From contig NZ_JALEBH010000001.1 of assembly GCF_022758885.1 (NCBI RefSeq), positions 2,697,501 to 2,761,500 of the forward strand: a stretch of 64,000 nt of DNA. The letters run 5' to 3'. Below are positions 21,440-63,846 of the stretch, piece by piece (position 1 is the first letter of the stretch; every line of letters starts with the position of its first letter). The notes beneath the pieces are model-generated. The model saw only the letters and a list, made by a program, of their open reading frames with translations, made no database searches and was not told where the DNA came from. A program made the translations under genes and the position numbers. This DNA comes from Sphingobium sp. BYY-5 (lineage in GTDB: Bacteria; Pseudomonadota; Alphaproteobacteria; Sphingomonadales; Sphingomonadaceae).

Positions 21440-21559
21440 TTAGAATTTGTTTGAAAATGCGCCTATCGGCGCATTGCGGCACCGGCCTTCAAACGAGTCA
21501 CGTGCCTCGTTTGAAGGCCGGTGCGGTCTCAAAATGCGCATTTTCAAACAGACTCTTAG
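21440..21559. repeat. TTTGAAAATGCGC palindromic element (copy 1)
   Basis: A 120-bp element. It begins TTAGAATTTGTTTGAAAATG and ends CATTTTCAAACAGACTCTTA. It holds a perfect 16-bp inner stem, CCGGCCTTCAAACGAG, with its complement (21482-21521). Related elements lie at 28563-28645 and 32736-32822. The right-hand TTA (21556-21558) is also the stop codon of queF on the minus strand. Confidence 0.8.
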
Positions 21560-22017
21560 CCCCGCCCGCGATAGCCCGGTACGTCCTGCGACGGCAGCCA
21601 CAGTCCGGCCGGTGGTTCGCCCGATTGCCAGAAAACGTCGATTGGGATGCCGCCGCGCGGATACCAGTAACCGCCGATGCGCAGCCAGATCGGCTGCATC
21701 TCGGTGAACAGCCGCTCGCCGATGCCCACGGTGCAATCCTCGTGGAAGGCGGCATGGTTGCGGAAGGCGCCCAGGAACAGCTTCAGCGACTTGGATTCGA
21801 CGATTGTTCCGCCCGGCGCATAGTCGATCACCAGATGGGCGAAGTCGGGCTGGCCCGTCACCGGGCAGAGCGAGGTGAATTCGGGCGCGGTGAAGCGCAC
21901 CAGATAGGGCTTGCCGGGGCGCGGATTGGGAACATAATCCAGCACGGCCTCTTCCGGCCGGGCGGGAAGCGCACTGGTCTGGCCCAGATGCAGCGGAGTC
22001 GAGGAAAGGTCAGTCAT
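21556..22017 (-). CDS. queF: 7-cyano-7-deazaguanine reductase (QueF)
   Basis: A short-form QueF (unimodular T-fold) of 153 residues that reduces preQ0 to preQ1 with NADPH in queuosine synthesis. Motifs are [16 protein letters not shown], with the catalytic cysteine and the aspartate downstream, [15 protein letters not shown] and HEDC. Start [12 protein letters not shown] at 22017. The TAA stop lies inside the terminal sequence of a palindromic repeat. Confidence 0.95.
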
Positions 22018-22105
22018 GCCGCGCCGTCTACGCCATCGCACGCTTGATGTCATCGTTCCGCATTGTTCACTTGCGGTTCAGTCATTCTTGTGCCTTGGCG
22101 GCGGG

Positions 22106-23344
22106 ATGGGGTTCCCGGTTCGTCTGTTTCTTCTTGCCGCCGCGCCGTTGTTGCTGGCTGCGCCTGTTCATGCGCAGCAGGCACAGGAGCCGGCTCCGAC
22201 ATTTTCCCTGCCGCCCGCCGGCACTGCCCCGGCGCCCAATCCGAACCGGCAGGGGCCGGAACTGGACGTGTATCGCGACCAGCCGCGCACGGCGCCCCCA
22301 GTCGTGGCGCCGACCGTCGTGCCCCCGCCCGTTCCCGTGCAGCCCGCGCCGACGCCCCAGTCTACCCCTCCGCGTCCGATGCCGGTGCGACCCGCGCCCG
22401 AACAACCACGCGCCACGCGCCCGGCCGAGCGGGAAGCGCCAGCCACCGTGCAACCGACGCCCGCACCGGTCGCGCCGACCAATGCCGTCGAACCAACGAA
22501 CGAAACCGCGCCCATCATCGCGCCATCGCTTCCCGCGCCGGCGACCAACGCCGTCGAAACGCCCGAAGCCGTCCCTGCCATACCGACGGAGCAGGGGAGC
22601 AAGCTGCCCTGGGTCATCGGCGGCGCACTGGCGCTCGTCGCGCTGGCTGCTTTCCTGCTGTTGCGCCGCCGCCGTCCGGTAGAGGTAGAGGAAGAACCGG
22701 CTCCGCCAGCGGTGGAGGTTCCACCGCCCGCGCCTGCCCCTGTCGCCCCCCCTGCGCCGGTGGAGTCCGCTCCCCCGCCGCCAGCGCCAGTCGCTGCGCC
22801 CGAACAACGGATCGCCACCACCGGCCGCCCCTGGCTCGACATGGACATGGCTGTCAGCCAGGCGCGCTATTCGCTGATGGGCCTGACCATCGTCTACAGC
22901 CTCATTCTTCATAATCGCGGCGACCGCCCCGCGCAGGATATCCTGATCCGCGGCATCGTCGGCAATGCGGGCGCGCAGCAGCAGGCGTTGCTCCAGGGCT
23001 TCTTTGCCGGCGACGATGGCCTGCCGCTTCACAGCGCGGTGTCGATCGAACCGGGCGAGACGCGTCAGCTTGCTGGCGAACTGCGCCTGTCGCCTGAACA
23101 GATCGTGCCGGTGGAAATGGGCCAGCGCAGCCTGCTGATCCCGCTCGCCGCCTTCGACCTCGCCTATCGCTGGGACGCGGTGGAGGACGAAGCGCTGGGC
23201 CATGGCCGCACCGCGCGCGCCTTCATCGTCGGGCAGGAGCAGGAGCCTCGCGCCGCCCGCCTCGCGCCCCTGCGCCTGGATCAAGGACCGCGCCAATATC
23301 GCCGCCCGGCCGCTCGCGCCGCGGCGGAACTGGCTCCCGCCTGA
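22106..23344 (+). CDS. proline-rich single-span membrane protein
   Basis: A protein of 412 residues. A signal-like helix (VRLFLLAAAPLLLAAPVHAQ) is followed by ~150 residues very rich in Pro/Ala. A transmembrane helix (WVIGGALALVALAAFLLLRRRR) comes next, then a second Pro-rich linker and a C-terminal domain of ~140 residues (RPWLDMDMAVSQARYSLMGL) that looks beta-rich. The Pro-rich periplasmic part could span the envelope, but function is unknown. The start ATG 22106 follows a GGCGGCGGG RBS-like stretch. It is divergent from queF. Confidence 0.85.
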   Translation: MGFPVRLFLLAAAPLLLAAPVHAQQAQEPAPTFSLPPAGTAPAPNPNRQGPELDVYRDQPRTAPPVVAPTVVPPPVPVQPAPTPQSTPPRPMPVRPAPEQPRATRPAEREAPATVQPTPAPVAPTNAVEPTNETAPIIAPSLPAPATNAVETPEAVPAIPTEQGSKLPWVIGGALALVALAAFLLLRRRRPVEVEEEPAPPAVEVPPPAPAPVAPPAPVESAPPPPAPVAAPEQRIATTGRPWLDMDMAVSQARYSLMGLTIVYSLILHNRGDRPAQDILIRGIVGNAGAQQQALLQGFFAGDDGLPLHSAVSIEPGETRQLAGELRLSPEQIVPVEMGQRSLLIPLAAFDLAYRWDAVEDEALGHGRTARAFIVGQEQEPRAARLAPLRLDQGPRQYRRPAARAAAELAPA

Positions 23345-23413
23345 AGCCATCTCTTTCCAGCCCCGGCAGGCCCGCCTAGAAGAAGCCGAGGAACAAGGAC
23401 ATAAGGGACCCGC

Positions 23414-24259
23414 ATGACCATCTTCGTTTCCACCGAGTGGCTCGCTGCCGAACTGGGCAAGTCGGATTTGCGCATCCTGGATGCCAGCCTGTTCCTGCCC
23501 GGCACGCCGCGCGACGCCCGCGCCGAGTTTGAGGCCGCCCATATCCCCGGCGCGGCCTTTCTCGATCTTGATACGCTGGCCGACCCGATCGATCCCGCGC
23601 CGCATAGCTTGCCGCCCGACGCGCTGATGACGCAGCGTGTCCAGGCGCTGGGCATCGATGCCGACAGCCGCATCATCCTCTATGACAACAGCCCCATCCG
23701 CAGCGCCGCGCGCGCCTGGTGGATGATGCGTCTCTATGGTGTCGGCGCGTCGGCCGCGATTCTCGACGGCGGCCTGCCCAAATGGCTGGCGGAGGGGCGG
23801 TCCACGGACAGCGGTGCCGCCATTCCCGCCCCCGGCACTGCTGTCGCCCGCATCGACCGCGCGCAGGTGCGTACCAAGGCCGATCTGCGCGCCAATATCG
23901 ACAGCGGTAACGCCCAGGTGCTGGACGCCCGTGGCGCCGGCCGCTTCACCGGCACGGAGGCGGAGCCACGCCCCGGCATGGCGTCGGGCCATATTCCCGG
24001 ATCGCGCAACCTGCCCTATTCCGCGCTGTTCGCGGCCGACAACAGCCTGAAATCGCCCGATGAACTGCGCGCCCTTTATGAAGGCGCTGGCATCGACCTT
24101 AACCGTCCCGTCATCACGACCTGCGGCAGCGGCGTCACTGCCGCCATCCTGCTCGCGGGCCTCGAATCGCTCGGCAAGACCGATATCGGCCTCTATGACG
24201 GAAGCTGGTCCGAATGGGGCTTCGATCCCGCGACACCGAAAGCGACAGGTGCGGCATGA
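23414..24259 (+). CDS. sseA: 3-mercaptopyruvate sulfurtransferase (rhodanese family)
   Basis: A protein of 281 residues with two rhodanese domains. It transfers sulfur from 3-mercaptopyruvate to thiophilic acceptors. The N-terminal inactive domain has DASLFLPGTPRDARAEFEAA and the C-terminal domain carries the active cysteine in TTCGSGVTAAILLAGL; the CGSGVTA loop is typical of mercaptopyruvate rather than thiosulfate enzymes. The stop overlaps the start of metC (ATGA), linking it to sulfur amino-acid metabolism. Confidence 0.93.
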   Translation: MTIFVSTEWLAAELGKSDLRILDASLFLPGTPRDARAEFEAAHIPGAAFLDLDTLADPIDPAPHSLPPDALMTQRVQALGIDADSRIILYDNSPIRSAARAWWMMRLYGVGASAAILDGGLPKWLAEGRSTDSGAAIPAPGTAVARIDRAQVRTKADLRANIDSGNAQVLDARGAGRFTGTEAEPRPGMASGHIPGSRNLPYSALFAADNSLKSPDELRALYEGAGIDLNRPVITTCGSGVTAAILLAGLESLGKTDIGLYDGSWSEWGFDPATPKATGAA

Positions 24260-25485
24260 GCGACGACGCTTTCGACAAGGATGAACGCAAGCCGCTGACC
24301 AGATTGGCGCAGGCGGGCCGCAAGCCCGAATGGACCGGTATGCCCGGCCAGCCCGGCAGCATCGTCAGCCCGCCGGTCTGGCGCGCCTCGACCATCCTCT
24401 ATGACGATGTTGCCCATTTGCGGAAGGCGGCGGGCAGCAGCACGCATGAGCGCCTCTTCTACGGGCGCAAGGGTACGCCGACCGCCTGGTCGCTGGCCGA
24501 TGCGCTCACCGAAATGGAACCGGGCGCGGAGGGGACGATGCTCTTCCCCTCGGGCGTGGCGGCGATCGCCTGCGCGCTGATGGCGGTGCTCAGGCCCGGC
24601 GACCGGCTGCTGATGGTCGACAGCACCTATGATCCGACCCGCAATTTCTGCCAGCAACTGCTGAAGAATTACGGCATCGAAACAGTCTATTATGATCCCG
24701 CGACCGTCCGGTTCGATGCCTATCTTGAGGCTGGCCCCATCCGCGCCATCTTCCTCGAAAGCCCCGGCAGCCTGACCTTCGAGGTGCAGGACATCCCCGC
24801 CATCACCGCCTGGGCCAGGGCGAACGGGGTCGTCACCCTGCTCGACAATACATGGGCGACGCCGCTCTATTTCCCGGCCTTGTCCCATGGCGTCGACATC
24901 TCGATCCTCGCCTGCACCAAATATATTGTCGGCCATTCGGACGTGATGATCGGCAGCGTCACCGCCAATGCGGACTGGTTCGCGAAGGTCCGCCAGACCG
25001 CCTATCTGTTCGGCCAGATGACCAGCCCCGACGACGCCTGGCTCGCCGCGCGCGGGCTGCGCACGCTGGGCGTCCGGTTGCGGCAGCATCAGGACAGCGC
25101 GCTCGCCATCGCCCGCTGGCTCAAGGACCAGCCCGATGTCGCCAGCGTCCTCCACCCGGCGCTGCCCGATTGCCCCGGCCATGCGCTGTGGCAGCGGGAT
25201 TTCAGCGGCTCCTCAGGCCTCTTCACCTTCATCCTGCGCGGCGGCGATGAACAGGCGCGCGCGGCGCTGATCGACGGACTCGCCCATTTCGGCATCGGCT
25301 ATAGCTGGGGCGGCTTTGAGAGCCTGGCGCTGCCGGTCGATCCGGCCCGCTATCGCAGTGCGACGACATGGCAAGCGGAAGGCCCCGCCGTCCGCCTGCA
25401 TATTGGTCTGGAAGACCCGGCGGACCTGATCGCGGACCTCGACGCCGGTCTCGCCCGCTTCCGCGCGATCCGCGACGCAGGCTGA
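24256..25485 (+). CDS. metC: cystathionine beta-lyase
   Basis: A Cys/Met-metabolism PLP enzyme of 409 residues that splits cystathionine into homocysteine, pyruvate and ammonia. Features are RLFYGRKGTPTAWSLADALT, the PLP lysine in LACTKYIVGHSDVMIGS and the C-terminal SWGGFESLALP. The bacterial beta-lyase subgroup is preferred over gamma-synthase from the YGRxGTPT and WGG(F/Y)ESL motifs. It is translationally coupled to sseA by an ATGA overlap. Confidence 0.93.
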   Translation: MSDDAFDKDERKPLTRLAQAGRKPEWTGMPGQPGSIVSPPVWRASTILYDDVAHLRKAAGSSTHERLFYGRKGTPTAWSLADALTEMEPGAEGTMLFPSGVAAIACALMAVLRPGDRLLMVDSTYDPTRNFCQQLLKNYGIETVYYDPATVRFDAYLEAGPIRAIFLESPGSLTFEVQDIPAITAWARANGVVTLLDNTWATPLYFPALSHGVDISILACTKYIVGHSDVMIGSVTANADWFAKVRQTAYLFGQMTSPDDAWLAARGLRTLGVRLRQHQDSALAIARWLKDQPDVASVLHPALPDCPGHALWQRDFSGSSGLFTFILRGGDEQARAALIDGLAHFGIGYSWGGFESLALPVDPARYRSATTWQAEGPAVRLHIGLEDPADLIADLDAGLARFRAIRDAG

Positions 25486-25509
25486 GCGTGTGGAAGCAGA
25501 TATCCCGAA

Positions 25510-25711
25510 CCTAGGCCAAGATCGACATTCACGGTATTAGGTGCTTCCTACGCCGTCATGCCGGACCCTTCGGCAGGCTCAGGACAGGCTTGATCCGGCA
25601 TCCAGAGTCGCAGGTGCCGCCCTTTGTGGCCCTGGATGCCGGATCAAGTCCGGCATGACGTTGAAAATGAAGCCAGGGCTTCTGCTTTAACCCGAATGTC
25701 GATCCGCCCTG
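25510..25711. repeat. composite inverted repeat with GATCGACATTC ends (copy 1)
   Basis: The left end is CCTAGGCCAAGATCGACATT and the right end, reverse complemented, AGGGCGGATCGACATTCGGG. Between them lies a nested palindrome, GTCATGCCGGA...TCCGGCATGACG (25552-25662), that itself contains CTTGATCCGGCATCCAG and its complement. The same outer sequence with a much shorter core occurs in reverse orientation at 28443-28566. Confidence 0.8.
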
Positions 25712-26800: not shown

Positions 26801-26823
26801 TCCCATCCTATTTCCGAATCTGG

Positions 26824-28405: not shown

Positions 28406-28442
28406 GCCCGCCCATATAAGGCCATTGCGGCGCGGCGAAAGC

Positions 28443-28566
28443 CCTAGGGCCGATCGACATTCAGATTAAAGCAGAAGCCTAAGCCTCATTTTCAATGTCA
28501 TGCCGGATCAGGTCCGGCATGACGGCTTGGGAAGTGCCTAAAACTGTGAATGTCGATCCGCCCTAA
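28443..28566. repeat. composite inverted repeat with GATCGACATTC ends (copy 2)
   Basis: Ends CCTAGGGCCGATCGACATTC and, reverse complemented, CTTAGGGCGGATCGACATTC. Internal markers TTAAAGCAGAAGCC, TCATTTTCAATGTCATGCC and GGAAGTGCCTAA match the copy at 25510-25711 read on the opposite strand. The core here is only GTCATGCCGGATCAGGTCCG plus its complement. Confidence 0.8.
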
Positions 28567-28645
28567 GAGTCGGTTTGAGAATACGCCTTTTCGGCGCATT
28601 GCTGTACTGGCCCTCTCTCCCGCGCATTTTCAAACAACATCTAAG
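28563..28645. repeat. TTTGAAAATGCGC palindromic element (copy 2)
   Basis: Begins CTAAGAGTCGGTTTGAGAAT and ends GCGCATTTTCAAACAACATC. It shares TTTTCGGCGCATTGC with copies 1 and 3. It directly abuts the composite repeat on its left and lies about 10 bp from the acs stop codon on its right. Confidence 0.7.
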
Positions 28646-28654: not shown

Positions 28655-30598
28655 CTAGCCCTGACGATTGGCGACCAGATTATCCACCACCGACGGGTCG
28701 GCCAGCGTGCTGGTGTCGCCCAGCGCCTGCGCCGACACTTCCCCCTCGGCAATCTTGCGCAGGATACGGCGCATGATCTTGCCGCTGCGGGTCTTGGGCA
28801 GGCCCGGCGCGAACTGGATCGCGTCGGGGGTGGCGATCGGGCCGATTTCGGTGCGCACCCACTGCACCAAAGTCTTGCGCAGCGCGTCGCTCGCTTCCTC
28901 GCCGCTGTTCAGAGTGACATAGGCATAGATGCCCTGGCCCTTGATATCGTGGGGGAAGCCGACCACCGCCGCCTCGGCCACGCTTTCGTGCAGCACCAGC
29001 GCGCTTTCGACTTCGGCCGTGCCCATGCGGTGGCCCGACACGTTGATGACGTCATCGACCCGGCCGGTGATCCAGTAATAGCCGTCCGCGTCCCGCCGCG
29101 CGCCGTCGCCGGTGGTATATTTGCCGGGGAAGGTGGTGAAATAGGTCTGGAAGAAACGTTCATGGTCGCCCCAGACGGTGCGCATCTGGCCCGGCCAGCT
29201 TTGGGCGATGACCAGATTGCCTTCGGCCGCGCCCTCCTGCACCACGCCTTCGGCATCGACGATCTGCGGCACCACGCCGGGCAGGGGGAAGGTGGCGGAG
29301 CCGGGTTTGAGGTCGGTGGCGCCCGGCGTCGGCGCAATCATCGCCGCGCCCGTCTCGGTCTGCCACCAGGTATCGATGATCGGGCAGCGATCCTCGCCGA
29401 CGACATGATGATACCAACGCCACGCCTCCGGGTTGATCGGCTCGCCCACCGTGCCCAGCAGGCGCAGCGAGGCGCGGCTGGTCTTCGTGACGAAATCATC
29501 GCCCTCCTTCATCAGCGCGCGCAGCGCCGTGGGGGCGGTGAAGAGGGTCTGTACCTGATGCCGGTCGACCACTTCCCAGATGCGGCTGGGCGTCGGATAG
29601 TTCGGCACGCCCTCATACATCAGCGTCGTCGCGCCGTTCGCCAGCGGGCCATAGACGATATAGCTGTGTCCCGTGACCCAGCCGATATCGGCGGCGCACC
29701 AGTAGATGTCGCCGGGGCGATAGTCGAAGCACAGCTCATGCGTCAGGCTGGCCCAGAGCAGATAGCCGCCGGTCGTGTGCAGCACGCCCTTGGGCTTGCC
29801 GGTCGACCCGGAGGTGTAGAGGATGAACAGCGGGTCTTCCGCATTCATCGGTTCGGGCGCGCAGTCGGGCGACACCCTGGCGGTTTCCTCATGCAGCCAC
29901 AGGTCGCGGCCGTCCTTCATCGTCACCGCGCCGCCGGTGGCCTTCACCACCACGACCTTCCTGACACACGGGCATTCGCGCAGCGCCGCATCGACATTGG
30001 CCTTCAAGGGCACCGTCTTGCCGGCACGGCGTCCTTCGTCGGCGGTGATGACCAGCGTCGAATCGCAATCGATGATGCGGCCGGCCAGCGCTTCGGGAGA
30101 GAAACCGCCGAAGACGACGCTGTGGATCGCGCCGATCCGCGCGCAGGCGAGCAGGGCGAAGGCGGCCTCCGGGATCATCGGCAGGTAGATGGTGATCCGG
30201 TCGCTCTTCTTCGCGCCGGCGGCCTTCAGCACATTGGCGATGCGGCACACCTCCTCATGCACCTGCGCGTAGCTATAGCGGCGCGGCGCGGCATCGGGCG
30301 AATCGGGTTCCCAGATGATCGCGGTCTGCTCCGCGCGTTCGGCCAGGTGGCGGTCGATGCAATTGACGCTGACGTTGAGCACGCCGTCGGCGAACCATTT
30401 CACCCCGAAATCACCCTCGGCAAAGCTGCTTTCATTGGTCCGGGTGGGCGGCGCGATCCAGTCGAGGCGCTGCGCCCGCTCCAGCCAATAGGCGTGGGAA
30501 TCGTCGATCGAGCGGGCATAATCCGCTTCCCGCGCCGACCGGTCCATCAGTGCCGTTGAGGCCCAGTTGTCCGGCACCGGGAAGAAATCGTCAGACAT
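28655..30598 (-). CDS. acs: acetyl-CoA synthetase
   Basis: An AMP-forming acetate:CoA ligase of 647 residues. ANL-superfamily motifs are [15 protein letters not shown] (P-loop), [31 protein letters not shown] and the hinge [16 protein letters not shown]. The catalytic lysine is in [12 protein letters not shown] and in this family is regulated by acetylation. Start [14 protein letters not shown] at 30598; an in-frame extension upstream is not conserved-looking. It appears to be transcribed alone. Confidence 0.96.
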
Positions 30599-32661: not shown

Positions 32662-32735
32662 GCTCGCTATAACGGTCGTAGCAAAACAAGGTTAAGGATA
32701 TGCCTGCAAAGAAACGCAAGCGCAATGATCTTGAA

Positions 32736-32822
32736 GCCTGTTCGGAAATGCACGGAAGAGCGCGTTTTTTGAGAGCCGGTGCGGCAATGCGCCGAAAGGC
32801 GCATCCGCAAACAGGCTCCTAG
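32736..32822. repeat. TTTGAAAATGCGC palindromic element (copy 3)
   Basis: Begins AAGCCTGTTCGGAAATGCAC and ends CGCATCCGCAAACAGGCTCC, then TAG. The inner GAGAGCCGGTGCGGCAATGC matches copy 1. The terminal CTAG (32819-32822) contains the stop codon of the LysR gene on the minus strand. Confidence 0.7.
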
Positions 32823-33700: not shown

Positions 33701-33885
33701 AACCTGTCAAAAATCCGAAGCCGATCCGCTGCGCCGCGTCAATTCTGTTTATCGAACGGCGCGCGTTCCGGTTCCAAGCATCCTCTCCATAATGAGCAGG
33801 AAAAAGCGGAAAATGGCAAGATGCAATTTTTGCAACTCACCAGATTATTTCGCACTTGCAAAAAACCACGTTGCAGTGCACATAG
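33701..33885. other. intergenic region upstream of the candidate RNA
   Basis: With 33886-34036 this is a 336-bp gap between the LysR gene and the Cdc48-like gene. It is distinctly AT-richer than its surroundings. A possible promoter is TTGCAA at 33856-33861 with ACATAG 18 bp further. CATCCTCTCC occurs at 33779-33788 and again at 33901-33910. Confidence 0.35.
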
Positions 33886-33950
33886 AAACGGCCTTTCAGG
33901 CATCCTCTCCTAAAACTTTCAGGGCTGGCTTTCGGGCTGGCCCTTTTTTT
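33886..33950 (+). ncRNA. candidate small RNA or leader ending in an intrinsic terminator
   Basis: A promoter-like TTGCAA-N18-ACATAG would start a transcript near 33890 of about 60 nt, containing CATCCTCTCCTAAAACTTTC before the terminator at 33921-33950. No plus-strand gene lies upstream, so the terminator ends either a free small RNA or the leader of the Cdc48-like gene. The CCUCUCC stretch resembles anti-Shine-Dalgarno loops of alphaproteobacterial small RNAs. This is inference only. Confidence 0.35.
33921..33950 (+). terminator. strong intrinsic terminator
   Basis: AGGGCTGGC and GCTGGCCCT form a 9-bp stem with two G-U pairs around TTTCGG, followed by seven T. It lies about 87 bp before the start of the Cdc48-like gene. 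Confidence 0.75.
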
Positions 33951-34036
33951 GTCCTGTCATGGTGCAACCATGGGGACTTTCCTAACGTCGCTGCGTTTCC
34001 TATCTCGTTACGGGAACGATAAGGACAGGATGGCTC

Positions 34037-39675: not shown

Positions 39676-40806
39676 ATGCAGTTGGAAAAGTTCAAGCGTA
39701 AAGTCTTCTACCTGGGTGGTTTCGATCCGCGCGGCGTTCGTTTTTATCACCAGCTCTATCGTGAGCAGGCCGCCCGCCATGCCGCGCTGACCGGTCAGCC
39801 GCTTGCTGTCAGCGCGCGCCGCACAGGTCCGGCCAGCTCCGCGATCTGGACGGTGGACAATCCCAAGAATGGGGTCGAGACCGACTATGAATATTTCCGG
39901 TGGGAGGATCTGGTCGGCAAGGTCTGGATTCGCAATCCGCTGACGCTCGCCCTCCGCTCGATTGCCACCTATGCCGGCCATGCCCGTTTCATGCAGTTCG
40001 GGCGGATGCGCAGGTTGCGGCACGGTCCGGTCATCACCATCCTCTACCCGCCTGTGCTGGCGCTGCTGATTCCGCTGCTGCTCGCGCTCGTCCCCGCACT
40101 CGTGCTTTCGCTGCTGGTTCCCTTCTGGGCCGCCGCGCTGGTCGGCATCGCGATCAGCGCGCTGCTGTCGGGGCGCCTGCTCAACAAGCTGGTCGTCCCC
40201 TGGCTGCTGCGCTTTCTCTATTACCATCATTGCCTTGCCGCCGACGGACCGGGCGACGCGCTCGATGCCCGCATCGATCAGTTCGCGGAGCGCATCGCGC
40301 AGGAACTGGACGGCGACTGGGACGAAGTGCAATTCGTCACGCACAGCGCGGGGACGATCCTGGGAATGCGCCTGATGCGCCGTCTGCTCGCCCTGCGCGG
40401 CGGGCGGTTGCCGGATCATTTCGTGATGCTGGGCCTGGGGCAGGTGGTGCCGGTCATCGGCCTGCGCCGCGATGCCGCCTGGTATCATGACGATCTCAGG
40501 GCATTGGCGGACAAGTCATTCCGTTATGTCGATATCAGTTCGCCGCCCGACGGCGCGGCCTATTACAACGTCAATCCGTTCCATCTTGTCGCGGATCACC
40601 ATGCGGCGCGTGTCGACATGCTATCGCCGCGCTTCCACCTCTTCTATGATCCGGAAAATTATCATGGCGGCTGGTCGAACAAATATGAGGCGCATTTCGA
40701 TTATCTGCGCGTGGGCGACCGCCTGTCCCCGCTCGACTTCATCAGCCTGACCGCAGGCCGCCGCACCGTGGACGACGCCGTAGCCGCCTTCAGGACGATT
40801 CCGTGA
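39676..40806 (+). CDS. lipase-like alpha/beta-hydrolase with membrane hairpin
   Basis: A protein of 376 residues. The N-terminal region KRKVFYLGGFDPRG resembles the first strand of a hydrolase fold. Two hydrophobic helices at about 122-170 (ALLIPLLLALVPALVLSLLV, then WAAALVGIAISALLSG) are followed by a nucleophile-elbow-like VQFVTHSAGTILGM (HSAG in place of GxSxG). FHLFYDPENYHGGW lies near the C-terminus. No family name is certain; a membrane-bound lipid hydrolase is the best guess. Its stop overlaps the GTG of the P450 gene (GTGA). Confidence 0.7.
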   Translation: MQLEKFKRKVFYLGGFDPRGVRFYHQLYREQAARHAALTGQPLAVSARRTGPASSAIWTVDNPKNGVETDYEYFRWEDLVGKVWIRNPLTLALRSIATYAGHARFMQFGRMRRLRHGPVITILYPPVLALLIPLLLALVPALVLSLLVPFWAAALVGIAISALLSGRLLNKLVVPWLLRFLYYHHCLAADGPGDALDARIDQFAERIAQELDGDWDEVQFVTHSAGTILGMRLMRRLLALRGGRLPDHFVMLGLGQVVPVIGLRRDAAWYHDDLRALADKSFRYVDISSPPDGAAYYNVNPFHLVADHHAARVDMLSPRFHLFYDPENYHGGWSNKYEAHFDYLRVGDRLSPLDFISLTAGRRTVDDAVAAFRTIP

Positions 40807-42173
40807 CCGATCTTTTCACGCCGCCTTATCCCCAGCCGCCGAAAACGAAGCGCGGCCTCGTCAAGCGTTTCCTGAGCGGCTGGCATAGCTGGATTCACGT
40901 CCTCTTCGACAAGAGCTACACGATGAAGATGGGCGAGATCCGGATGCCCGGCCGGACCATGTATATCGCCAACGAACTGTCGCTGGTGGACCAGATATTG
41001 CGCGGCGGCACCGCCTTTCCCAAGCATAGCGAACTGGTCCGCAACCTCGATCCGCTGATCGGCAATTCGGTCTTCTCGGCCAATGGCGCGGACTGGGAAA
41101 GCCAGCGGGCGATGGTCAACCCCGCCTTCGCCCATACCGCGCTGGGCCGGTCCATGCCGCTGATGGTCGCGGCGGCCGATGACCTGCTCGCCCGGCTCGA
41201 CGCGGCGGACAGGAGCAGGCCGGTCGATATCGACCCGATGATGACCCATGTCGCGGCCGACATCATCTTCCGCACGCTCTTTTCCCAGACCCTGGACGAA
41301 CCGCGCTCCAACATCATCCACACCGCCTTCGGGCGGTTCCAGCGCCTTGCGCACAGCGCCTCGATGTTGCGCCTCTACGGCATTCCGGCGGGCTGGTTCG
41401 AGAAACGCTCGAAAGGCCCGGCCCGCGCCATCCATGATGTGTTCCGCCCGATCGTCGAGGCGCGTTACGAGGGCTATCATGCACGCGGGCAAACGGACCA
41501 GCGCGACATCCTCCAGTCGCTCATAGAGGCGAAGCACCCCGGAACTGGCGCGCCTTTCACCTGCGAACAGGTGATGGAGCAGGTTTCCACCATCTTCCTC
41601 GCCGGTCATGAAACCTCCGCCAGCACCATGACCTGGGCGCTCTACATGCTCGCCGAATGCGCCCATATCCAGGACCGGGTCCGCGTCGAGGTGACGGGGA
41701 TCGCGGGCGACGCGCCGCTGACCGCGCCGATGCTCAAGGATATGGGCCATGTCCGCAACATCTTCCGCGAGACCCTGCGCCTCTATCCCCCCGTCTCCTT
41801 CCTGCCGCGCGAAGTCACCTGCCCGATGGACATGCGCGACAAGCATCTGGAACAGGGCGCGATGCTGGTCGTCGCCCCCTGGCTGACCCAGCGCAACAAG
41901 GATAACTGGGCCTGCCCTCACAGCTTCGATCCCGACCGTTTCGACGACCCTGCCAATGCGGAGATGGCGAAACAGGCCTGGTTCCCCTTCGGCCGTGGCC
42001 CCCGCGTCTGCGTCGGCGCGGGCTTTGCCCAGCAGGAGGTGATGACGGTGATCGCGTCGGTCGTGCGTCGCTATCGCCTGACCGTGCCCGTCGGTTTCAA
42101 GCCCGAACCCATCAGCCGCCTCACCATCCGTCCGAAGACGGGGATGCCCTTGTTGTTCGAGCGGGTGGACTGA
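40803..42173 (+). CDS. cytochrome P450
   Basis: A haem monooxygenase of 456 residues. The I-helix oxygen motif is FLAGHETSASTMTW, the K-helix ExxR is in ETLRLYPPVSFLPRE, and the haem loop FPFGRGPRVCVGAGFA carries the thiolate cysteine near residue 402. There is no N-terminal membrane anchor. The layout resembles fatty-acid/alkane hydroxylating or CYP4-like bacterial P450s, but the substrate is unknown. The GTG start overlaps the stop of the lipase-like gene, so both are one transcription unit, probably acting on lipids. Confidence 0.92.
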   Translation: MTDLFTPPYPQPPKTKRGLVKRFLSGWHSWIHVLFDKSYTMKMGEIRMPGRTMYIANELSLVDQILRGGTAFPKHSELVRNLDPLIGNSVFSANGADWESQRAMVNPAFAHTALGRSMPLMVAAADDLLARLDAADRSRPVDIDPMMTHVAADIIFRTLFSQTLDEPRSNIIHTAFGRFQRLAHSASMLRLYGIPAGWFEKRSKGPARAIHDVFRPIVEARYEGYHARGQTDQRDILQSLIEAKHPGTGAPFTCEQVMEQVSTIFLAGHETSASTMTWALYMLAECAHIQDRVRVEVTGIAGDAPLTAPMLKDMGHVRNIFRETLRLYPPVSFLPREVTCPMDMRDKHLEQGAMLVVAPWLTQRNKDNWACPHSFDPDRFDDPANAEMAKQAWFPFGRGPRVCVGAGFAQQEVMTVIASVVRRYRLTVPVGFKPEPISRLTIRPKTGMPLLFERVD

Positions 42174-42180
42174 CCTATTA

Positions 42181-42302
42181 TCCTCCCCTGGAAGGGGAGG
42201 GGGACCGCTCGCAAAGCGAGTGGTGGAGGGGTGTCACCCTATCGATAACGGGACACCCCTCCGTCTGGCCTTCGGCCATCCACTTCCCCTTACAGGGGAG
42301 GA
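42181..42302. repeat. CCTCCCC/GGGGAGG complex palindromic repeat (copy 2)
   Basis: Ends TCCTCCCCTGGAAGGGGAGG and CCCCTTACAGGGGAGGA. Inside are GGAGGGGTGTCACCCTATCGAT and GGGACACCCCTCC, the reverse complement of the core in the copy at 10844-10987. It lies between the convergent P450 and transglutaminase-cluster genes. Confidence 0.75.
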
Positions 42303-42305
42303 TGC

Positions 42306-49306: not shown

Positions 49307-49376
49307 CTGTTCCCCGGCGAAGGCCGGGGTCCAGTTCCACGGCGCGAACTGGACCCCGGCCTTCGCCGGGGAACAG
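49307..49376. repeat. perfect 30-bp hairpin repeat
   Basis: Arms of exactly 30 bp, beginning CTGTTCCCCGGCGAAGGCCG, pair around a 10-nt loop CCACGGCGCG. The half-element TTCCCCGGCGAAGGCCGGGG is itself a palindrome. It lies in the 246-bp gap between the DUF2126 gene and the prolyl oligopeptidase gene. Confidence 0.85.
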
Positions 49377-51848: not shown

Positions 51849-54332
<2,484 letters not shown>

Positions 54333-54411: not shown

Positions 54412-54822
54412 ATGACCTATGCGCGTGACGCCGTCGGCCCTTTCTATCATGGCACACGCGCCGACCTGTCGCCGGGCGACCTTATCGTACCCGGCTTCGC
54501 GTCCAACTATGGCACGGGCAAGGTTGCGTCCTGGGTCTATCTCACCGGCACGCTCGAAGCGGCGATATGGGGCTGCGAACTGGCGGTGGGCGAGGGGCGC
54601 GAACGCATCTACATTGTCGAACCGACCGGTCCCTTTGTCGATGATCCCAACCTCACCGACCAAAAATTCCCCGGCAACCCGACGCAATCCTATCGCTCGC
54701 GCGAACCGTTGCGCGTCATGGGAGAAATCGTTGAATGGCAGGGGCATTCCGCCGACCAGTTACAGGCCATGAAGGATCACCTCGCCCGCTTGAGCGCGCA
54801 GGGTATAGAAGCCATCGACTGA
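54412..54822 (+). CDS. arr: rifamycin ADP-ribosyltransferase Arr
   Basis: A protein of 136 residues that transfers ADP-ribose from NAD to rifamycins and inactivates them. Family motifs are GPFYHGTRADLSPGDLIVPG, with the active histidine, then SWVYLTGTLEAAIWGCELA and YIVEPTGPFVDDPNLTDQ with the conserved aspartates, followed by FPGNPTQSYRSREPLRV. It is full length compared with known Arr proteins. It is a single gene after thiC and before a toxin-antitoxin pair. Confidence 0.93.
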   Translation: MTYARDAVGPFYHGTRADLSPGDLIVPGFASNYGTGKVASWVYLTGTLEAAIWGCELAVGEGRERIYIVEPTGPFVDDPNLTDQKFPGNPTQSYRSREPLRVMGEIVEWQGHSADQLQAMKDHLARLSAQGIEAID

Positions 54823-56799: not shown

Positions 56800-58656
56800 A
56801 TGCAAATGCCGCCTTCAACGCCCGATTCCACGCCGATCCCGCCCATATGGGCCACGATGCGGCGTTTCCTGCCCTATCTATGGCCTGCCGATGCGCCCGC
56901 GTTGCGCCGCCGCGTCGTGCTGGCCATGGTGCTGGTGCTGCTGGCCAAGGCGATCAGCCTCGCCATGCCCTTCGCCTACAAAGCGGCGGTCGATCGCATG
57001 GCGCCGGGGCTGGAACCCGCCGTCGGTCTCGCCATCGCCCTGGTGGTCGCCTATGCCGGCGCCCGCTTCGGCAGCGTGTTTTTCGACAACCTGCGCAACG
57101 CCGTGTTCGAAAGCGTGGGGCAGGAGGCCGGCCGGCGCCTGTCCGACGCCGTCTTCGTCCATCTCCACCGCCTGTCGCTGCGCTTCCACCTCGACCGCCG
57201 CACCGGCGCCGTCACCCGGATCGTCGAGCGCGGCACCAAGAGCATCGATACGATGCTCTATTTCCTGCTCTTCAACATCGCCCCGACCCTGATCGAACTG
57301 GCGGCGGTCTGTGCCATCTTCCTCGTGAAGTTCGGTCCCGGCCTGGTGGCCGCGACGCTGGCGATGGTCGCGCTCTATATCTGGTTTACCCGCACCGTCA
57401 CCGAATGGCGCAACCAGCTTCGCCGCGACATGGTGGACATGGACACCAGCGCCGTCGCCCATGCCGTCGACAGCCTGCTGAACTTCGAGACGGTCAAATA
57501 TTTCGGGGCGGAAGACCGGGAGGCGAAGCGCTACGGCACCGCCATGCGCCGCTATGCCCAGGCGGCGGTGAAATCGGAAAACAGTCTCGCCTGGCTCAAT
57601 ATCGGCCAGTCGTTCATCACCAACCTGATGATGGCGGGCGCCATGGGCTACACCGTCTGGGGCTGGAGCCGGGGGCAGTTCACGACCGGCGACGTGGTGC
57701 TGGTGAACACGCTTTTGAGCCAGCTTTTCCGCCCGCTCGACCTGCTCGGCATGGTGTATCGCACCATTCGCCAGGGGCTGATCGACATGGAGGCTATGTA
57801 CAAGCTGATCGACACTCAGGCGGAGGTCGCCGATGCGCCCGATGCCCCACGGCTGTTGGTGGCGGGCGGGGAAGTCCGCTTCGATCATGTCCGCTTCGGC
57901 TATGATCCCGAACGTGAAATCCTCCACGGCGTCAGCTTCACCGTCCCGGCGGGCAGGACGCTGGCGATCGTCGGCCCGTCGGGCGCGGGCAAGTCCACCA
58001 TCGCCCGCATCCTCTTCCGCTTCTACGATATTCAGGGCGGCAGGGTGACGATCGACGGGCAGGATATCGCCGGAGTCGGCCAGCAGTCGCTGCGCGCCGC
58101 GATCGGCATCGTGCCGCAGGACATGGTGCTGTTCAATGACACGGTCGGCTATAATATCGGCTATGGCCGCGAGGGCGCGACCCAGGTGGAGATCGAGGCG
58201 GCGGCCAGGGCGGCATCGATCCACGACTTCATCATCAGCCTGCCGCAGGGCTATGACACGCGCGTGGGCGAACGTGGCCTGAAACTCTCAGGGGGTGAGA
58301 AACAGCGCGTCGCCATCGCCCGCACGCTGCTGAAAGATCCGCCGGTGCTGGTGCTCGACGAAGCGACCAGCGCGCTCGACAGCCGCACCGAAACCGAAAT
58401 CCAGACCGTCCTGCGCGACATCAGCCGCAAGCGCACCACGCTGGTGGTGGCGCATCGCCTCTCCACCGTGGTCGATGCCGACGAGATTATCGTGCTGGAC
58501 AAGGGCCGCGTCGTAGAGCGCGGCCGCCATGCCGACCTGGTCCGTGCCGATGGCCTCTACGCCACCATGTGGGCACGTCAGGCGGCGGAGCGGGCGGTCA
58601 CGCCGGCCGAACCGGGCGTCGAGGATATGTTCGAAGTGGTGCCGCCTTTATCTTAG
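56800..58656 (+). CDS. Atm1-like ABC exporter (fused membrane and ATPase)
   Basis: A half-transporter of 618 residues. The six-helix membrane domain spans about 30-330 and contains LSLRFHLDRRTGAVTRIVER and SLLNFETVKYFGAEDREAKR, both typical of the Atm1/HMT1 subfamily. The ATPase domain has GPSGAGKSTIARIL, LSGGEKQRVAIARTL and LVLDEATSALDSRTE. Family members export glutathione-linked sulfur or metal adducts. The TAG stop (58654-58656) lies in the TTAG end of the following palindromic element. Confidence 0.92.
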   Translation: MQMPPSTPDSTPIPPIWATMRRFLPYLWPADAPALRRRVVLAMVLVLLAKAISLAMPFAYKAAVDRMAPGLEPAVGLAIALVVAYAGARFGSVFFDNLRNAVFESVGQEAGRRLSDAVFVHLHRLSLRFHLDRRTGAVTRIVERGTKSIDTMLYFLLFNIAPTLIELAAVCAIFLVKFGPGLVAATLAMVALYIWFTRTVTEWRNQLRRDMVDMDTSAVAHAVDSLLNFETVKYFGAEDREAKRYGTAMRRYAQAAVKSENSLAWLNIGQSFITNLMMAGAMGYTVWGWSRGQFTTGDVVLVNTLLSQLFRPLDLLGMVYRTIRQGLIDMEAMYKLIDTQAEVADAPDAPRLLVAGGEVRFDHVRFGYDPEREILHGVSFTVPAGRTLAIVGPSGAGKSTIARILFRFYDIQGGRVTIDGQDIAGVGQQSLRAAIGIVPQDMVLFNDTVGYNIGYGREGATQVEIEAAARAASIHDFIISLPQGYDTRVGERGLKLSGGEKQRVAIARTLLKDPPVLVLDEATSALDSRTETEIQTVLRDISRKRTTLVVAHRLSTVVDADEIIVLDKGRVVERGRHADLVRADGLYATMWARQAAERAVTPAEPGVEDMFEVVPPLS

Positions 58657-58755
58657 AGCATTTTCTAGTCAGGTGATGCCACCTGACTAGAAAATGCGTT
58701 AAACCAAAAACTTAGAAGGGTTGATCCGATGCAATCGGATCGCAAACCGTTCTAA
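58653..58755. repeat. TTAGAGCATTTTC palindromic element
   Basis: The left hairpin GCATTTTCTAGTCAGGTG pairs with CACCTGACTAGAAAATGC (58658-58698). It is followed by AGAAGGGTTGATCCGATGC and a GATCCGATGCAATCGGATC stem, ending CCGTTCTAAG. TTAG at the left end contains the stop of the ABC gene, and CTAA at the right end the stop of the convergent gene at 58752. Confidence 0.8.
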
Positions 58756-59798: not shown

Positions 59799-59811
59799 CT
59801 GTCCGTCCTTA

Positions 59812-60366
59812 TCAGATGCGCTTCGACAGCGCGATGGCGGCGCGGCAGCCCAGCCGAATGGCGCCGGACAAGAGGGGATAGGCCGGCGCCTGCTCCGCGC
59901 CATGAGCAAGGGCGGCGTCGCGATGCTCCAGTTCCTCCGCCTGGAAATCCGCGATGGCGGTGGAGAGTTCCAGATCGTCCGTGCCCAGTTGCTCCAACTG
60001 ATCGGCATAATGTTTGTCGATTTCCGTCTCGACCGCAGCGGTGCAGGCCATCGCGGCCTTCGGTCCCATGGCGGCGGTGACCGCGCCCAGGGCGAAACCG
60101 GCGACGTGCCAGAAAGGGGTGAGCGCAGTCGGGCGCACGCCGCGCCGCGCGATCATCGCGTCGAAGGCGGCGCGGTGCCGCTCCTCCTGCGCGGCCATGC
60201 CCGCGATCAGGCGGGCATAGGGATGGCGGTCGCCCATGACGGCAAGCTGCCCGGCATAGATGCGGGTGGCGCCGAACTCGCCCGCCTGGTCGACCCGCAC
60301 CATAGAGGCGCGGTCGGCATCGGTCAGCCTTTTGCCCGGTCGCGGGAAATCCTTGGAGGCGCTCAT
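59812..60366 (-). CDS. coq7: demethoxyubiquinone hydroxylase Coq7
   Basis: A membrane-associated di-iron monooxygenase of 184 residues for the late ring hydroxylation of ubiquinone. Iron ligands lie in RVDQAGEFGATRIY (Glu), AAQEERHRAAFD (Glu and His), AVETEIDKHYADQLEQL and DFQAEELEHRDAAL. It fits with the UbiH-like gene at the left edge. The start overlaps the dsbB stop (ATGA). Confidence 0.95.
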   Translation of the reverse strand: MSASKDFPRPGKRLTDADRASMVRVDQAGEFGATRIYAGQLAVMGDRHPYARLIAGMAAQEERHRAAFDAMIARRGVRPTALTPFWHVAGFALGAVTAAMGPKAAMACTAAVETEIDKHYADQLEQLGTDDLELSTAIADFQAEELEHRDAALAHGAEQAPAYPLLSGAIRLGCRAAIALSKRI

Positions 60367-60857
60367 GCTTTCCTCGCTTTCAACAGCAAGGCCAAGATGG
60401 CGAGCGCGACCGCGCCCGACAAGAGGCCGTTATAGCCGGCGAGCGAAATACCAAACAGGCTCCAGGGCGCGACATCGCAGCGAGTGATAGGGCTGGCCAT
60501 GATCTGGTTCAGCAGGTCGGCGGCGCTGCCGCTCGATGGAGAGGTGGAGCAGGTGGTCAGCCCTTCCCACCAGCCATATTCGACCCCGGCATGGAACAGA
60601 CCGATACCGCCGCTGATACCGACAGCCAGTCCCGCCAGCCCGGCGAACAGGGCGCTGATGCAGGCGCGTCCCTGTGCCGCATAGGCGACCAGCGCCAGCG
60701 GGATCGCCACCATATGGGGATAGCGCTGCCACCAGCACATTTCGCACGGGTGCAGCCCGCCAATATATTGGGAGGCATAGGCGCCGCCCAGCAGCAGCAG
60801 GGGTGTCAGCAGCGCGAGGGCGCGGGCCTTGGCGAGGGACGGGGATCGGTTCTTCAT
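60363..60857 (-). CDS. dsbB: disulfide bond formation protein B
   Basis: A protein of 164 residues with four transmembrane helices that reoxidises DsbA using quinone. Catalytic cysteine pairs are CEMCWWQRYPHMV near residue 37 and the periplasmic loop pair in TTCSTSPSS and SPITRCDVAPW. It is coupled to coq7, so the quinone reductant and a quinone biosynthesis step share one transcript. Confidence 0.92.
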   Translation of the reverse strand: MKNRSPSLAKARALALLTPLLLLGGAYASQYIGGLHPCEMCWWQRYPHMVAIPLALVAYAAQGRACISALFAGLAGLAVGISGGIGLFHAGVEYGWWEGLTTCSTSPSSGSAADLLNQIMASPITRCDVAPWSLFGISLAGYNGLLSGAVALAILALLLKARKA

Positions 60858-60927
60858 ACCAGCCCGCTTAAACCCTCACCCTGCTTTCGTCATGCTGAAC
60901 TTGTTGGCCGACCACAACCAGAAGGGG

Positions 60928-62280
60928 CTATTTCGCCCCCGGCTTGCGTGCGGCCATCTGCGCCTGGGCGATCGTCGCCGCGGGCGTGCCGGCCAGGCGC
61001 GAGATTGTCTTGAGCGCATAGTCGAGCTGGAAGTCGGTGACGCCCTTCTTTTTCAGGTCCTCGGCGGACATGGCGAAGCGCGGATCGTCCTTGCTGTCCT
61101 CTTCCAGCGCCACGTCGTCGGTCTTGATCTCGTTGATGAGATGGCGACGCAGATCGCTTTCGCGGAATTTGGGCCGGTTCTTGTAATCGGGGTCGGAAAG
61201 CTGCGGCACGCGGATATCGGGCTGGATGCCGCCTTCCTGCACGCTGCGGCCCGATGGCGTGTAATAGCGCGCGGTCGTCAGCTTCAGCGCCGTGGTGTTC
61301 GACAGTGGCAACATGGTCTGGACGCTGCCCTTGCCGAAGCTGCGTTCGCCCATCACCAGCGCGCGATGCTGGTCCTGCAACGCGCCCGCGACGATTTCCG
61401 ACGCGGAAGCCGAACCGGCATCGACCAGCACGATTATGGGCAGGCCCTTCGCATCGTCGCCCGGCTTGGCATAATAGCGTTCGACATCGCCCTTGGCCCG
61501 GCCGCGCTGCGACACGATCTCGCCGCGCTCTAGGAAGGTGTCGCTGACCGACACGGCTTCATCCAGCAAACCGCCGGGGTTGGAACGCAGGTCGAGGATA
61601 TAGCCGGTGGGTTTGTGGCTCAGGCTCTTGTCGATGCTGCGGATCGCCTGGCGCACGTCCGCCCCGGTATTGGCCGAGAAGCTGACGATGTTGATGACGC
61701 CGATGCCATTCTTCACTTCCCACTTCACCGGCTTCAACTGGATGATTTCGCGTGTGAGGGTGAGTTCGATGGGTTTGTCGCGGCCGGGGCGCACGATGGT
61801 CAGCTTGAGGCTGGTGCCCGGTGCGCCGCGCATCTTGTCCACTGCCTCGTCCAGCGTGCCGCCATAGATCAACTGGCCGTCAATATGCGTAATATAGTCG
61901 CCCGCCTTGATCCCCGCGCGCCAGGCCGGGGTATCCTGCGTCGGCGCGATCACCTTGACCGCGCCATCCTCCTGCGTGACGGACAGGCCCAGGCCGCCAT
62001 AGCTGCCCTCGGTCTGGGTGCGCAGATTCTGGAAGTCGCGCGCATCGAGGAACGATGAATGCGGGTCGAGGCTGGCGAGCATCCCGTCGATCGCGCCCTT
62101 TATGAGCTTTTCGTCGTCGACCTTTTCCACATAATCGCTGCGGACCTTCTGGAACACGTCCATGAATTCATCGAGCGCCTTGTAGCTCGACGCTTCCCCG
62201 TCGGCGAGTGCGGCGGTAGTGGCAGGAATGAGCGCAAGCGCCCCAAGCGCAACAGCGCCCTGGAGGAAGGTGGATTTCAT
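60928..62280 (-). CDS. ctpA: S41 carboxy-terminal processing peptidase (CtpA)
   Basis: A periplasmic protease of 450 residues. A signal peptide (TFLQGAVALGALALIPATTA) is followed by SSFLDARDFQNLRTQTEGSY, a PDZ domain (about 85-170) and the S41 core. The nucleophile is in VDAGSASASEIVAGAL and the general-base lysine in RSFGKGSVQTMLPL. Start MKSTFLQ with AAGGA upstream. It follows envC on the same strand, matching the division/peptidoglycan context in which CtpA-type proteases trim cell-wall enzymes. Confidence 0.94.
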   Translation of the reverse strand: MKSTFLQGAVALGALALIPATTAALADGEASSYKALDEFMDVFQKVRSDYVEKVDDEKLIKGAIDGMLASLDPHSSFLDARDFQNLRTQTEGSYGGLGLSVTQEDGAVKVIAPTQDTPAWRAGIKAGDYITHIDGQLIYGGTLDEAVDKMRGAPGTSLKLTIVRPGRDKPIELTLTREIIQLKPVKWEVKNGIGVINIVSFSANTGADVRQAIRSIDKSLSHKPTGYILDLRSNPGGLLDEAVSVSDTFLERGEIVSQRGRAKGDVERYYAKPGDDAKGLPIIVLVDAGSASASEIVAGALQDQHRALVMGERSFGKGSVQTMLPLSNTTALKLTTARYYTPSGRSVQEGGIQPDIRVPQLSDPDYKNRPKFRESDLRRHLINEIKTDDVALEEDSKDDPRFAMSAEDLKKKGVTDFQLDYALKTISRLAGTPAATIAQAQMAARKPGAK

Positions 62281-62392
62281 GGCTGTCCTTGGAGTCCGCA
62301 TCAATGGATCGATATAGGCCGATTCGCGCGCCAACGCAAAACCGGGCTTCGACCAATGTCGCTGTGCGACGATGAGCGTCGGGTTAATGCCG

Positions 62393-63625
62393 TCATCCCA
62401 GTCCTACCAGCGGTACGATATCGACCGGGCGGCCGTTGCGGCGCAGTTCGACGGTGATATTGGGCTGCTCCGCGCCGGTGATGCCGACCGGTTCGCCCTG
62501 GCGCACGCTGTCGCCTACCCGCGCGGTGACGCGGTGGAGGCCGGTGATGAGCGTGGTCCAGCCCTGGCCATGGTCGATGATGAGGATCTGGCCATAGTCG
62601 CGATAGGGTCCGGCGAAGGCGATGCGGCCGGCCGTCGGCGCGATGGCTTGCGCGCCCGGCTGCGTCACCAGGGTCAGGCCGCGTGAGCGCACGCCGCTGT
62701 CATTGACCTCGCCCATGCCGGTGACGAGCTGGCCGATCACAGGCAAACGATAGGGCGGCGGGCCGCCGGCAGAAGCCTCACGTTCAATGGCGGGGGCGCT
62801 AGCCTGATCGGGCCGGGCGGGGCGGAGCAGCGGGCCGGATAGGGCCGCCAGCCGGTCGCGCAGACTGCCCGCTTCTTCCAGCCGGTCCATCAGATCGACA
62901 ATATCGCGCGCCCGCTCGCCCAGTGCCAGCGCGCGGTCGCTTTCCAGCCCCGCATCGGCGCGATAGTCGCGGGCGGCGACACGCTTGCGCACCTCCAGCG
63001 AAGCGAGCGCGGCCTGTTGCTGCTTGCGGTCGGCCTGCGCCTGGGTCAGGGCGTCGGCGGCCTGTTGCGCGCTGGCGCGCAGGGCGCGGCTGCGCTCCAG
63101 TTCGGCGCGGAGGCCCGCAGTGCGCTGCTGGATGACCGGCAATATCTGGCCCAGCATGGCGCGCATATGGACGGCGTCGCCGACCGATCCGGGCTGCACC
63201 AGCGCCAGCGCCAGCGGGCGGCGAGCCATCATTTGCAGCGCGGCGGTCAGGCGGACCACTGGCTCCTGCCTGGCGGCGAGGCGGGCGGCCTGGATGCGCT
63301 GCATCCGGTTGAGGATGGCGATGCGGGCCTGCGCCGCCTGGATATCCGCCTCCGCCTGCTGGATGCGGGCGGCGACGGCGGCGGCGCGGCGGCGGGCCTG
63401 TTCGGCCTCGTCGCGGGCGGCGGTGGCCTGCTGCTCTAGGCGGGCGGAACGATCGCGCGCCTCGTCCGACTGGCGGCGCGCGTCCTTGAGCGCCTGCTGC
63501 TCCTGCGGCAGGGTGGTGCCAGCGGTGCCGGGCAGGATGATGGCGTCGCCATCGGCTGCGGGCAGGCGCGTGGCGGCGAGGGCCATCAGGCCCGCCAGTC
63601 CGCCAGCGATGATGATGGTGCGCAT
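62393..63625 (-). CDS. EnvC-like murein hydrolase activator (degenerate M23)
   Basis: A protein of 410 residues. A signal peptide (IIIAGGLAGLMALAATRLPA) is followed by a long coiled coil (about 40-270: QQALKDARRQSDEARDRSAR and RLEQQATAARDEAEQARRRA) and a C-terminal LytM/M23 fold (about 290-410: IAPTAGRIAFAGPYRDYGQI). The zinc motif HxxxD is replaced by RGLTLVTQPG and the HxH by GLHRV, so it should activate amidases rather than cut peptidoglycan. ATG 63625 is used; a GTG codon precedes it. Confidence 0.88.
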   Translation of the reverse strand: MRTIIIAGGLAGLMALAATRLPAADGDAIILPGTAGTTLPQEQQALKDARRQSDEARDRSARLEQQATAARDEAEQARRRAAAVAARIQQAEADIQAAQARIAILNRMQRIQAARLAARQEPVVRLTAALQMMARRPLALALVQPGSVGDAVHMRAMLGQILPVIQQRTAGLRAELERSRALRASAQQAADALTQAQADRKQQQAALASLEVRKRVAARDYRADAGLESDRALALGERARDIVDLMDRLEEAGSLRDRLAALSGPLLRPARPDQASAPAIEREASAGGPPPYRLPVIGQLVTGMGEVNDSGVRSRGLTLVTQPGAQAIAPTAGRIAFAGPYRDYGQILIIDHGQGWTTLITGLHRVTARVGDSVRQGEPVGITGAEQPNITVELRRNGRPVDIVPLVGLG

Positions 63626-63679
63626 CACCCGTTGCCCCGCCCTTGATCGCCCTTGCCTAGGGAAAAAAGCGAGGCGGTT

Positions 63680-63774
63680 CTAGTGTGGTGGATTTGAAAT
63701 ACGCCACATTATGGCGGCTTGGTAGGGAGCGTATTTCAAATCCATAAACCACACCGGAATCAAATATTTGCTAG
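63680..63774. repeat. CTAG-bounded palindromic element A
   Basis: Starts CTAGTGTGGTGGATTTGAAA, turns at CACATTATGGCGGC and returns as GCGTATTTCAAATCCATAAA, then CCACACC, ending ATTTGCTAG. The arms pair over GGATTTGAAATACGC. It shares its final CTAG with element B. Confidence 0.75.
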
Positions 63775-63846
63775 TGACCCTTGTGAATCTGAAGTTCGTT
63801 CAACGCCTACCAAATGGTGTGACGAACTTCATATTCGGGTCACTAG
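63771..63846. repeat. CTAG-bounded palindromic element B
   Basis: CTAGTGACCC at the left and GGGTCACTAG at the right. Inner arms GAAGTTCGTTCA and GTGACGAACTTC make a long imperfect hairpin. The right-hand CTAG contains the stop codon of rlmH on the minus strand. Confidence 0.8.

Follow-up and report, generated by a model that had tools for sequence, protein, structure and literature searches.

Insertion sequences (ISs) of the IS1031 subgroup of the IS5 family, as described in the relevant passages on ISLrh, insert at TNA, generate a 3-bp direct repeat and carry inverted repeats of the form GAACCTGTC... (PMC12016507). IS630 elements insert at TA, and a preference for CTAG is given in a title by Tenzen that is cited in PMC2170065. 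Short palindromic targets were also described for MITEPsy1 of Pseudomonas syringae, a miniature inverted-repeat transposable element (MITE) of ~100 bp, probably of the IS5 type, with the target CTAG or YTAA (PMC3189936), and for the eukaryotic PHIS/NuwaII elements, in which the target could be TNA or CTNAG with conserved C and G flanks (PMC4482050). Termini of GTAG repetitive extragenic palindromes (REPs) often give flanking open reading frames (ORFs) their TAG stops (PMC3733652), and E. coli REPs are located ≤15 nt from stops, with translational effects reported for REPs (PMC12306157). Here, palindromic elements at stop codons were analysed in a 64,000-nt stretch of Sphingobium sp. BYY-5 (contig NZ_JALEBH010000001.1, positions 2,697,501 to 2,761,500; hereafter the window), whose genome of 4.70 Mb is assembled in two contigs.

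The stops of queF, a LysR gene, an ABC exporter gene, a gene convergent with the latter, and rlmH each lie at the outer boundary of such an element, as a first-pass annotation of the window had placed them and as was read again from the sequence. Its count of at least three unrelated families also agrees with our results: family A is found at TNA, family B at TA in YTAR and family C at CTAG. It is very probable that the elements are MITEs which depend for their movement on DDE transposases acting in trans at short palindromic targets, and that they come to sit at stops through a TNA or TA target together with duplication or rebuilding of the stop. The unusual site choice invoked by the annotation holds in part. 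The TA/TNA palindromic targets are real, but they are not new, since the TNA rule of IS1031-type IS5 elements and the TA/CTAG rule of IS630 have already been described; it is the closeness of family A to stops in this genus that exceeds these rules. Known target rules cover much of the siting, and a leftover preference for gene 3′ ends lies outside them.

Family A resembles the IS1031 subgroup in its TNA target and its 3-bp repeat (PMC12016507). The inverted repeats may be related as well, GAACCTGT.. resembling GAGTCTGT.., and in a single comparison GAGTCTGTTTG of family A was similar to GAACCTGTCTA of ISLrh. Unlike that subgroup, intact family A copies measure 45-175 bp, a transposase partner was not found in the DNA examined, and within the genus the copies are mostly at stops. 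Family B shares with IS630/Tc1-mariner elements (PMC2170065) the TA duplication and a CTAG/YTAR target, and its own genome holds a DDE_3 IS with GAGCGGTT ends; it differs in being a two-hairpin MITE whose similarity is short and confined to one end. MITEPsy1 is close in size, type and target, whereas siting at stop codons is not described in the cited passages (PMC3189936), and the same holds for the link to stops in the account of PHIS/NuwaII (PMC4482050). The GTAG REPs (PMC3733652) are a close precedent, but REPs are tied to the REP-associated tyrosine transposase (RAYT), whereas target duplications and no RAYT were found here. Hairpins near stops are common to E. coli REPs (PMC12306157) and the present elements; in the latter, insertion takes place in the stop itself. 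In the parts of the open-licence literature covered, no report was recognised of MITEs or ISs that target stop codons, nor of a MITE family with a stop codon as target duplication in most copies.

Elements and stop codons in the window

The elements and the stops that they adjoin are as follows (TSD, target-site duplication).

21443..21555, minus strand: family A MITE at the queF stop; terminal inverted repeats GAATTTGTTTGAAAATGCGC and GAGTCTGTTTGAAAATGCGC, TSD TTA at 21440-21442 and 21556-21558
21556..21558, minus strand: queF stop codon, which is the right copy of the TTA duplication
28445..28565, no strand: family D element abutting the acs element; TAGGGCCGATCGACATTC..GAATGTCGATCCGCCCTA, TA-flanked
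28567..28641, no strand: family A MITE near acs, away from the stop; TSD TAA, target CTAAG
32735..32818, minus strand: family A MITE at the LysR stop; left end diverged, flanks CTTG/CTAG, perfect TSD absent
32819..32821, minus strand: TAG stop of the LysR gene, located at the boundary of the element
58654..58656, plus strand: exporter stop TAG, made of the target TA and the first G of the element
58656..58752, no strand: two-hairpin family B MITE with GAGCATTTTC and GAACGG... as its outer ends; insertion at the TA of a TTAA common to two convergent stops
58752..58754, minus strand: stop TAG of the convergent gene, at the opposite end of the family B element
63680..63846, no strand: family C composite element made up of two hairpins, with CTAG at either end and between the hairpins
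63843..63845, minus strand: rlmH stop codon within the terminal CTAG

Pfam searches confirmed QueF, LysR, the ABC transporter, acs (AMP-binding) and rlmH (SPOUT), and gave no family match for the convergent gene next to the exporter. An mmgR/suhB-type small RNA (33884-33958; RF00519, 46.5 bits) was located just past the LysR gene. The queF element was predicted to form a very stable hairpin (RNA fold z of -10.06); the z values were -3.76 for the LysR element, -8.77 for the family B copy (58657-58751), and -4.37 and -6.22 for the hairpins of the family C copy. No Rfam match was obtained at the elements at the gathering threshold. Such strong predicted hairpins, placed directly after the stops of queF, rlmH and other genes, may affect termination or mRNA decay.

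The family B element was indeed shared by both flanking genes, with the exporter and convergent-gene stops at its two ends. The acs stop lies in CTAG (28655-28658), and its distance of 10 bp from another element was borne out, the nearest boundary being the right TSD of the family A copy. CTAG, which had been called rare, was seen 158 times in 464 kb of the own genome, against 1564 expected from composition. The frame of an IS481-like transposase also stops in CTAG (2920-2923), as had been noted; its two NF033577 matches (652-1311 and 2600-2923), neither of which reaches the cut-off, are split by an IS3-type ORF (1647-2555). The CTAG/TTAG tetramer named in the annotation needs correcting for family A, in which the duplicated unit is TNA, often in a CTNAG context.

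Stops that predate the insertions

The elements had been thought to supply the stops of their neighbours, and this was contradicted by the relatives. All 29 fetched relative orthologues of queF share the stop codon position, and family A ends were absent from the 72 bases after the queF stop in these 29 relatives. The LysR gene ends at the same stop codon in 24 of 24 relative genomes (from which 28 loci, including 4 duplicates, were returned), with A-like sequence right after the stop in G002, G009, G015 and G020, most clearly in G015 (L231). In G004 (L074), the sole relative with the exporter and convergent genes adjacent, the pair is free of any element and the two stops overlap in TTAA. If an element whose first base is G enters at the TA of this TTAA, a TAG results at each end, which is the arrangement in the window. 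Because the relatives end at the same codons, the elements are not the suppliers of the stops. The stops predate the insertions at the queF, LysR and exporter/convergent loci, and insertion duplicates or rebuilds the stop. The idea that genes lost their own stop and now end in an element can draw on three copies in the own genome with the called stop inside the element (C1:3014842, C1:1468890, C2:246194); given the relatives' stops at the above three loci, it is highly improbable.

In the proposed mechanism of trans-mobilised MITEs, family A would be moved by an IS1031-type (IS5 family) enzyme that duplicates TNA, which in the genus is mostly TWA and at best CTWAG. Families B, C and D would be moved by IS630/IS5-type enzymes acting on TA inside CTAG, TTAA or CTAA; for families A, C and D these are putative identities of the transposase. 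Such targets are scarce in GC-rich DNA. One strand of every TNA reads as a stop trinucleotide, so that duplication of TNA allows a transposon to enter a stop without breaking the gene. With a real stop as target, either the duplication TNA...TNA or the first base of the element (TA + GAG = TAG) keeps an in-frame stop in place, so that the coding sequence is preserved. The insertion chemistry of such a transposon mends its own potential damage. Two factors are combined, namely the TNA target, which near gene ends is usually the stop, and a confinement to gene ends beyond the target.

Targets and duplications of the families

Family A has the ends GAGtCTGTTTGAAAATGCGC, and many of its copies are ~153 bp long. 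A search of 94 genomes of the genus found these ends at ≤1 mismatch in 25, the own genome included. Around the element, two loci of the genus (L221 and L222) match contigs of Sphingobium sp. YR768 (L184) and Sphingobium terrigena (L193) in sequence, in line with the genus being Sphingobium. Among 36 copies paired by their ends alone, identical flanking 3-mers were observed in 19, and all 19 were TNA, with a middle base that varied between copies and was constant within each of them. TNA precedes 55 of 71 unselected ends in the genus (TWA 37, TGA/TCA 18), preferably with C before and G after it; the copies away from stops (10 of 40) were stricter on the flanking C/G (0.85 vs 0.57). A 4-bp CTAG/TTAG duplication was rejected for family A, as copies of the form G-TAA..TAA-A and C-TGA..TGA-C fit TNA only, and flanks such as G-TAA-GAG..CTC-TAA-A exclude a duplication of CTNAG. 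The stop at intact copies was TAA in 23 of 32, vs 86 of 428 in the gene sample, where TGA was the commonest stop (275/428). This bias to TAA, which would follow from a reading of TWA, indicates a sequence target rather than stops as such. TWA is favoured by family A, but it is not exclusive.

For family B, 20 copies among the matches listed and 4 own copies were inspected, and 14 of the 24 had a clear end pair; the window's own copy is among the other 10. Stops were found at 9 of the 14 (7/12 after collapsing one orthologous locus that was counted three times). One insertion is common to G018, G022 and G016 (L334, L338 and L339), with overlapping convergent stops and the joined flanks TTTAAA, implying that such insertions can persist across species. 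In 72,556 plasmid records, family B matches were present in 3, 2 of which cover most of the element, and partial matches to family A and to its Gluconacetobacter form were present in 1 record each. The own genome contains three identical copies of an IS630-type IS (L107-L109) with TA flanks, the ends GAGCGGTTTCC and a DDE_3 transposase. A second copy of family C (C2:140026-140192; 90% identity) likewise ends at a called stop, and a second family D copy sits within the CTAG between the hairpins of the family C element at C1:1579525-1579905. An IS5-type IS of the own genome, 827 bp including the C-TA and TA-G flanks, is located in CTAG (C-TA..TA-G) in 4/4 copies, two of which end at a called gene stop. 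As an autonomous partner of family A, the own IS5-type loci L101-L104 did not match.

Placement at stops and its explanations

Forty family A copies were paired with equal TNA flanks required, which left out 73 single-end copies; one of the 40 was dropped for a cut flank, and of three copies first scored as coding one was also a stop case. The resulting 39 intact copies comprised 30 at a stop, 7 in spacers and 2 in coding DNA, and by distinct loci 29 of 37 were at stops. In the own genome a stop was present at the target of 21 of 27 sites, after dropping five of 32 (two that matched by chance within or close to coding DNA, two with the core palindrome only and one without a clear end). The null sample was the above 464 kb with 448 called genes; these were predicted by a home-made dicodon caller, which may have misplaced the stop where a gene scored weakly. 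Among non-coding sites, the share at a stop was 0.14 for TNA, 0.31 for CTNAG (43/139) and 0.21 for CTWAG (12/56), and it was at most 0.46 when sites near starts and divergent spacers were excluded (CTNAG, 100-bp guard). In the same sample, two unrelated palindrome families had 0 of 13 intergenic copies ≤5 bp from a stop and all 13 at least 49 bp away (of 27 spans, 14 were excluded because they are coding; no spans came from a third control family). Stop placement of family A (30/39 vs 0.14-0.46 expected) is above random intergenic placement, as the annotation implied. Its siting is strongly non-random within the genus, with enrichment above site availability.

The part of this enrichment that exceeds the target rules would stem either from biased insertion near gene 3′ ends or from selection that retains copies there. 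Pure tolerance, in which motif-driven insertion occurs everywhere and selection purges most insertions away from stops, is a serious contender to which we give somewhat less than an even chance. Just 2 of the 39 intact copies lie inside called genes. When sites were drawn from the matching intergenic regions, the expected number of stops was 13.0 out of 36-37 for random TNA, 20.7 for motif-weighted sites, and up to 25.8 of 34 vs 30 observed (P 0.0011) for motif weights with a 150-bp start guard; the position weight matrix (PWM) was learned from the same copies and leans towards stops. Tolerance is less easily reconciled with the genome-wide expectation, which with the same guard is still 0.39, or with spacers that do harbour other palindromes. 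The spacer-dwelling control palindromes speak for an insertion bias behind the confinement, but they are few in number.

Active steering of insertion to stops or to the 3′ ends of genes, over and above the sequence target and for example by a termination-linked DNA structure or a host factor, appears rather unlikely. It would be in keeping with the distance of at least 49 bp kept by the control palindromes, with the 30 of 37 copies at stops where the extended PWM expected 0.22-0.39, and with the non-coding copies at targets other than CTWAG, 22 of 24 of which were at stops vs 107 of 420-792 TWA sites, a comparison in which TGA/TCA-target copies were set against TWA sites only. On the other hand, in the first 30 bp past gene ends most of the weighted target falls on the stop (535 vs 165), near the observed 30 vs 4. 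The excess of perfect CTWAG copies (8 at stops, 5 in spacers; P 0.007 vs all sites) fades when sites <150 bp from starts are left out (8:5 vs 12:15, P 0.25), and a retention bias would serve as well. Moreover, a palindrome with CCTCCCC arms (42180-42303), of a family not among the control palindromes, begins 6 bp after the stop of the gene at 40803-42173, so nearness to stops is not peculiar to these families. A preference of family A in particular for stop codons, guided by a signal for recognition or accessibility that gene 3′ ends would offer in addition to TNA, and self-healing in that the stop is kept by duplication, is correspondingly doubtful. The question has become testable whether a transposase reaches gene ends by sequence alone or via a mark of translation or transcription termination.

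REPs or bacterial interspersed mosaic elements moved by a RAYT tyrosine transposase would likewise be palindromic, multi-copy and mostly extragenic, and the TAG stops from GTAG REP termini mentioned above are a further likeness. REPs typically have a GTAG-tagged end and are not known to duplicate their target. The window elements end in GAG and are without a GTAG-tagged end, and TNA duplications as well as TA in YTAR are present. A RAYT-like transposase, which the annotation had suggested looking for, was not found: the own genome gave 0 matches to PF01797 (Y1_Tnp), while the control search was positive in 5/14 genomes. Since the search turned up no RAYT, the elements do not form a REP system; such an origin was rejected on this result together with the target duplications, and its chance is next to nil.

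Returning to MITEs moved in trans and brought to stops by their target, several observations weigh against this explanation. Identical 3-mers were lacking in 17 of the 36 end-paired family A copies, the LysR copy included. The own-genome list with single-end copies had TAA 10, TGA 8 and TAG 4 of 22. In the DNA examined, which is part of the genomes, no autonomous partner of family A was found, nor any two ends that have equal TNA and a spacing of 600-1700 bp. An extended PWM with promoter avoidance expected a stop share of 0.22-0.39, and 30/37 were observed. For family B, the YTAR read in the joined flanks of 13/14 paired copies favours the explanation, but only its outer Y and R are independent tests because pairing required the right-hand TA, and just 8 bp, GAGCGGTT, at one family B end are in common with the own IS630-type IS. 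Family A-type ends also exist in Gluconacetobacter, Inquilinus, Neoroseomonas and others. Outside the genus TNA was found at 20/30 of them (30 of 36 loci, left ends scored only, some loci being chance matches), but mostly as TGA/TCA (17/20), and just 6/30 have a stop directly next to the left end.

Elsewhere in the window, further palindromic repeats were noted at 21344-21406, 25579-25658 and 49307-49376, the last with perfect 31-bp arms and an 8-nt loop. A rifampin ADP-ribosyltransferase-like gene is located at 54412-54822 (NF033144, 213.8 bits), and a thiamine pyrophosphate (TPP) riboswitch at 51884-51995 (RF00059, 64.8 bits).

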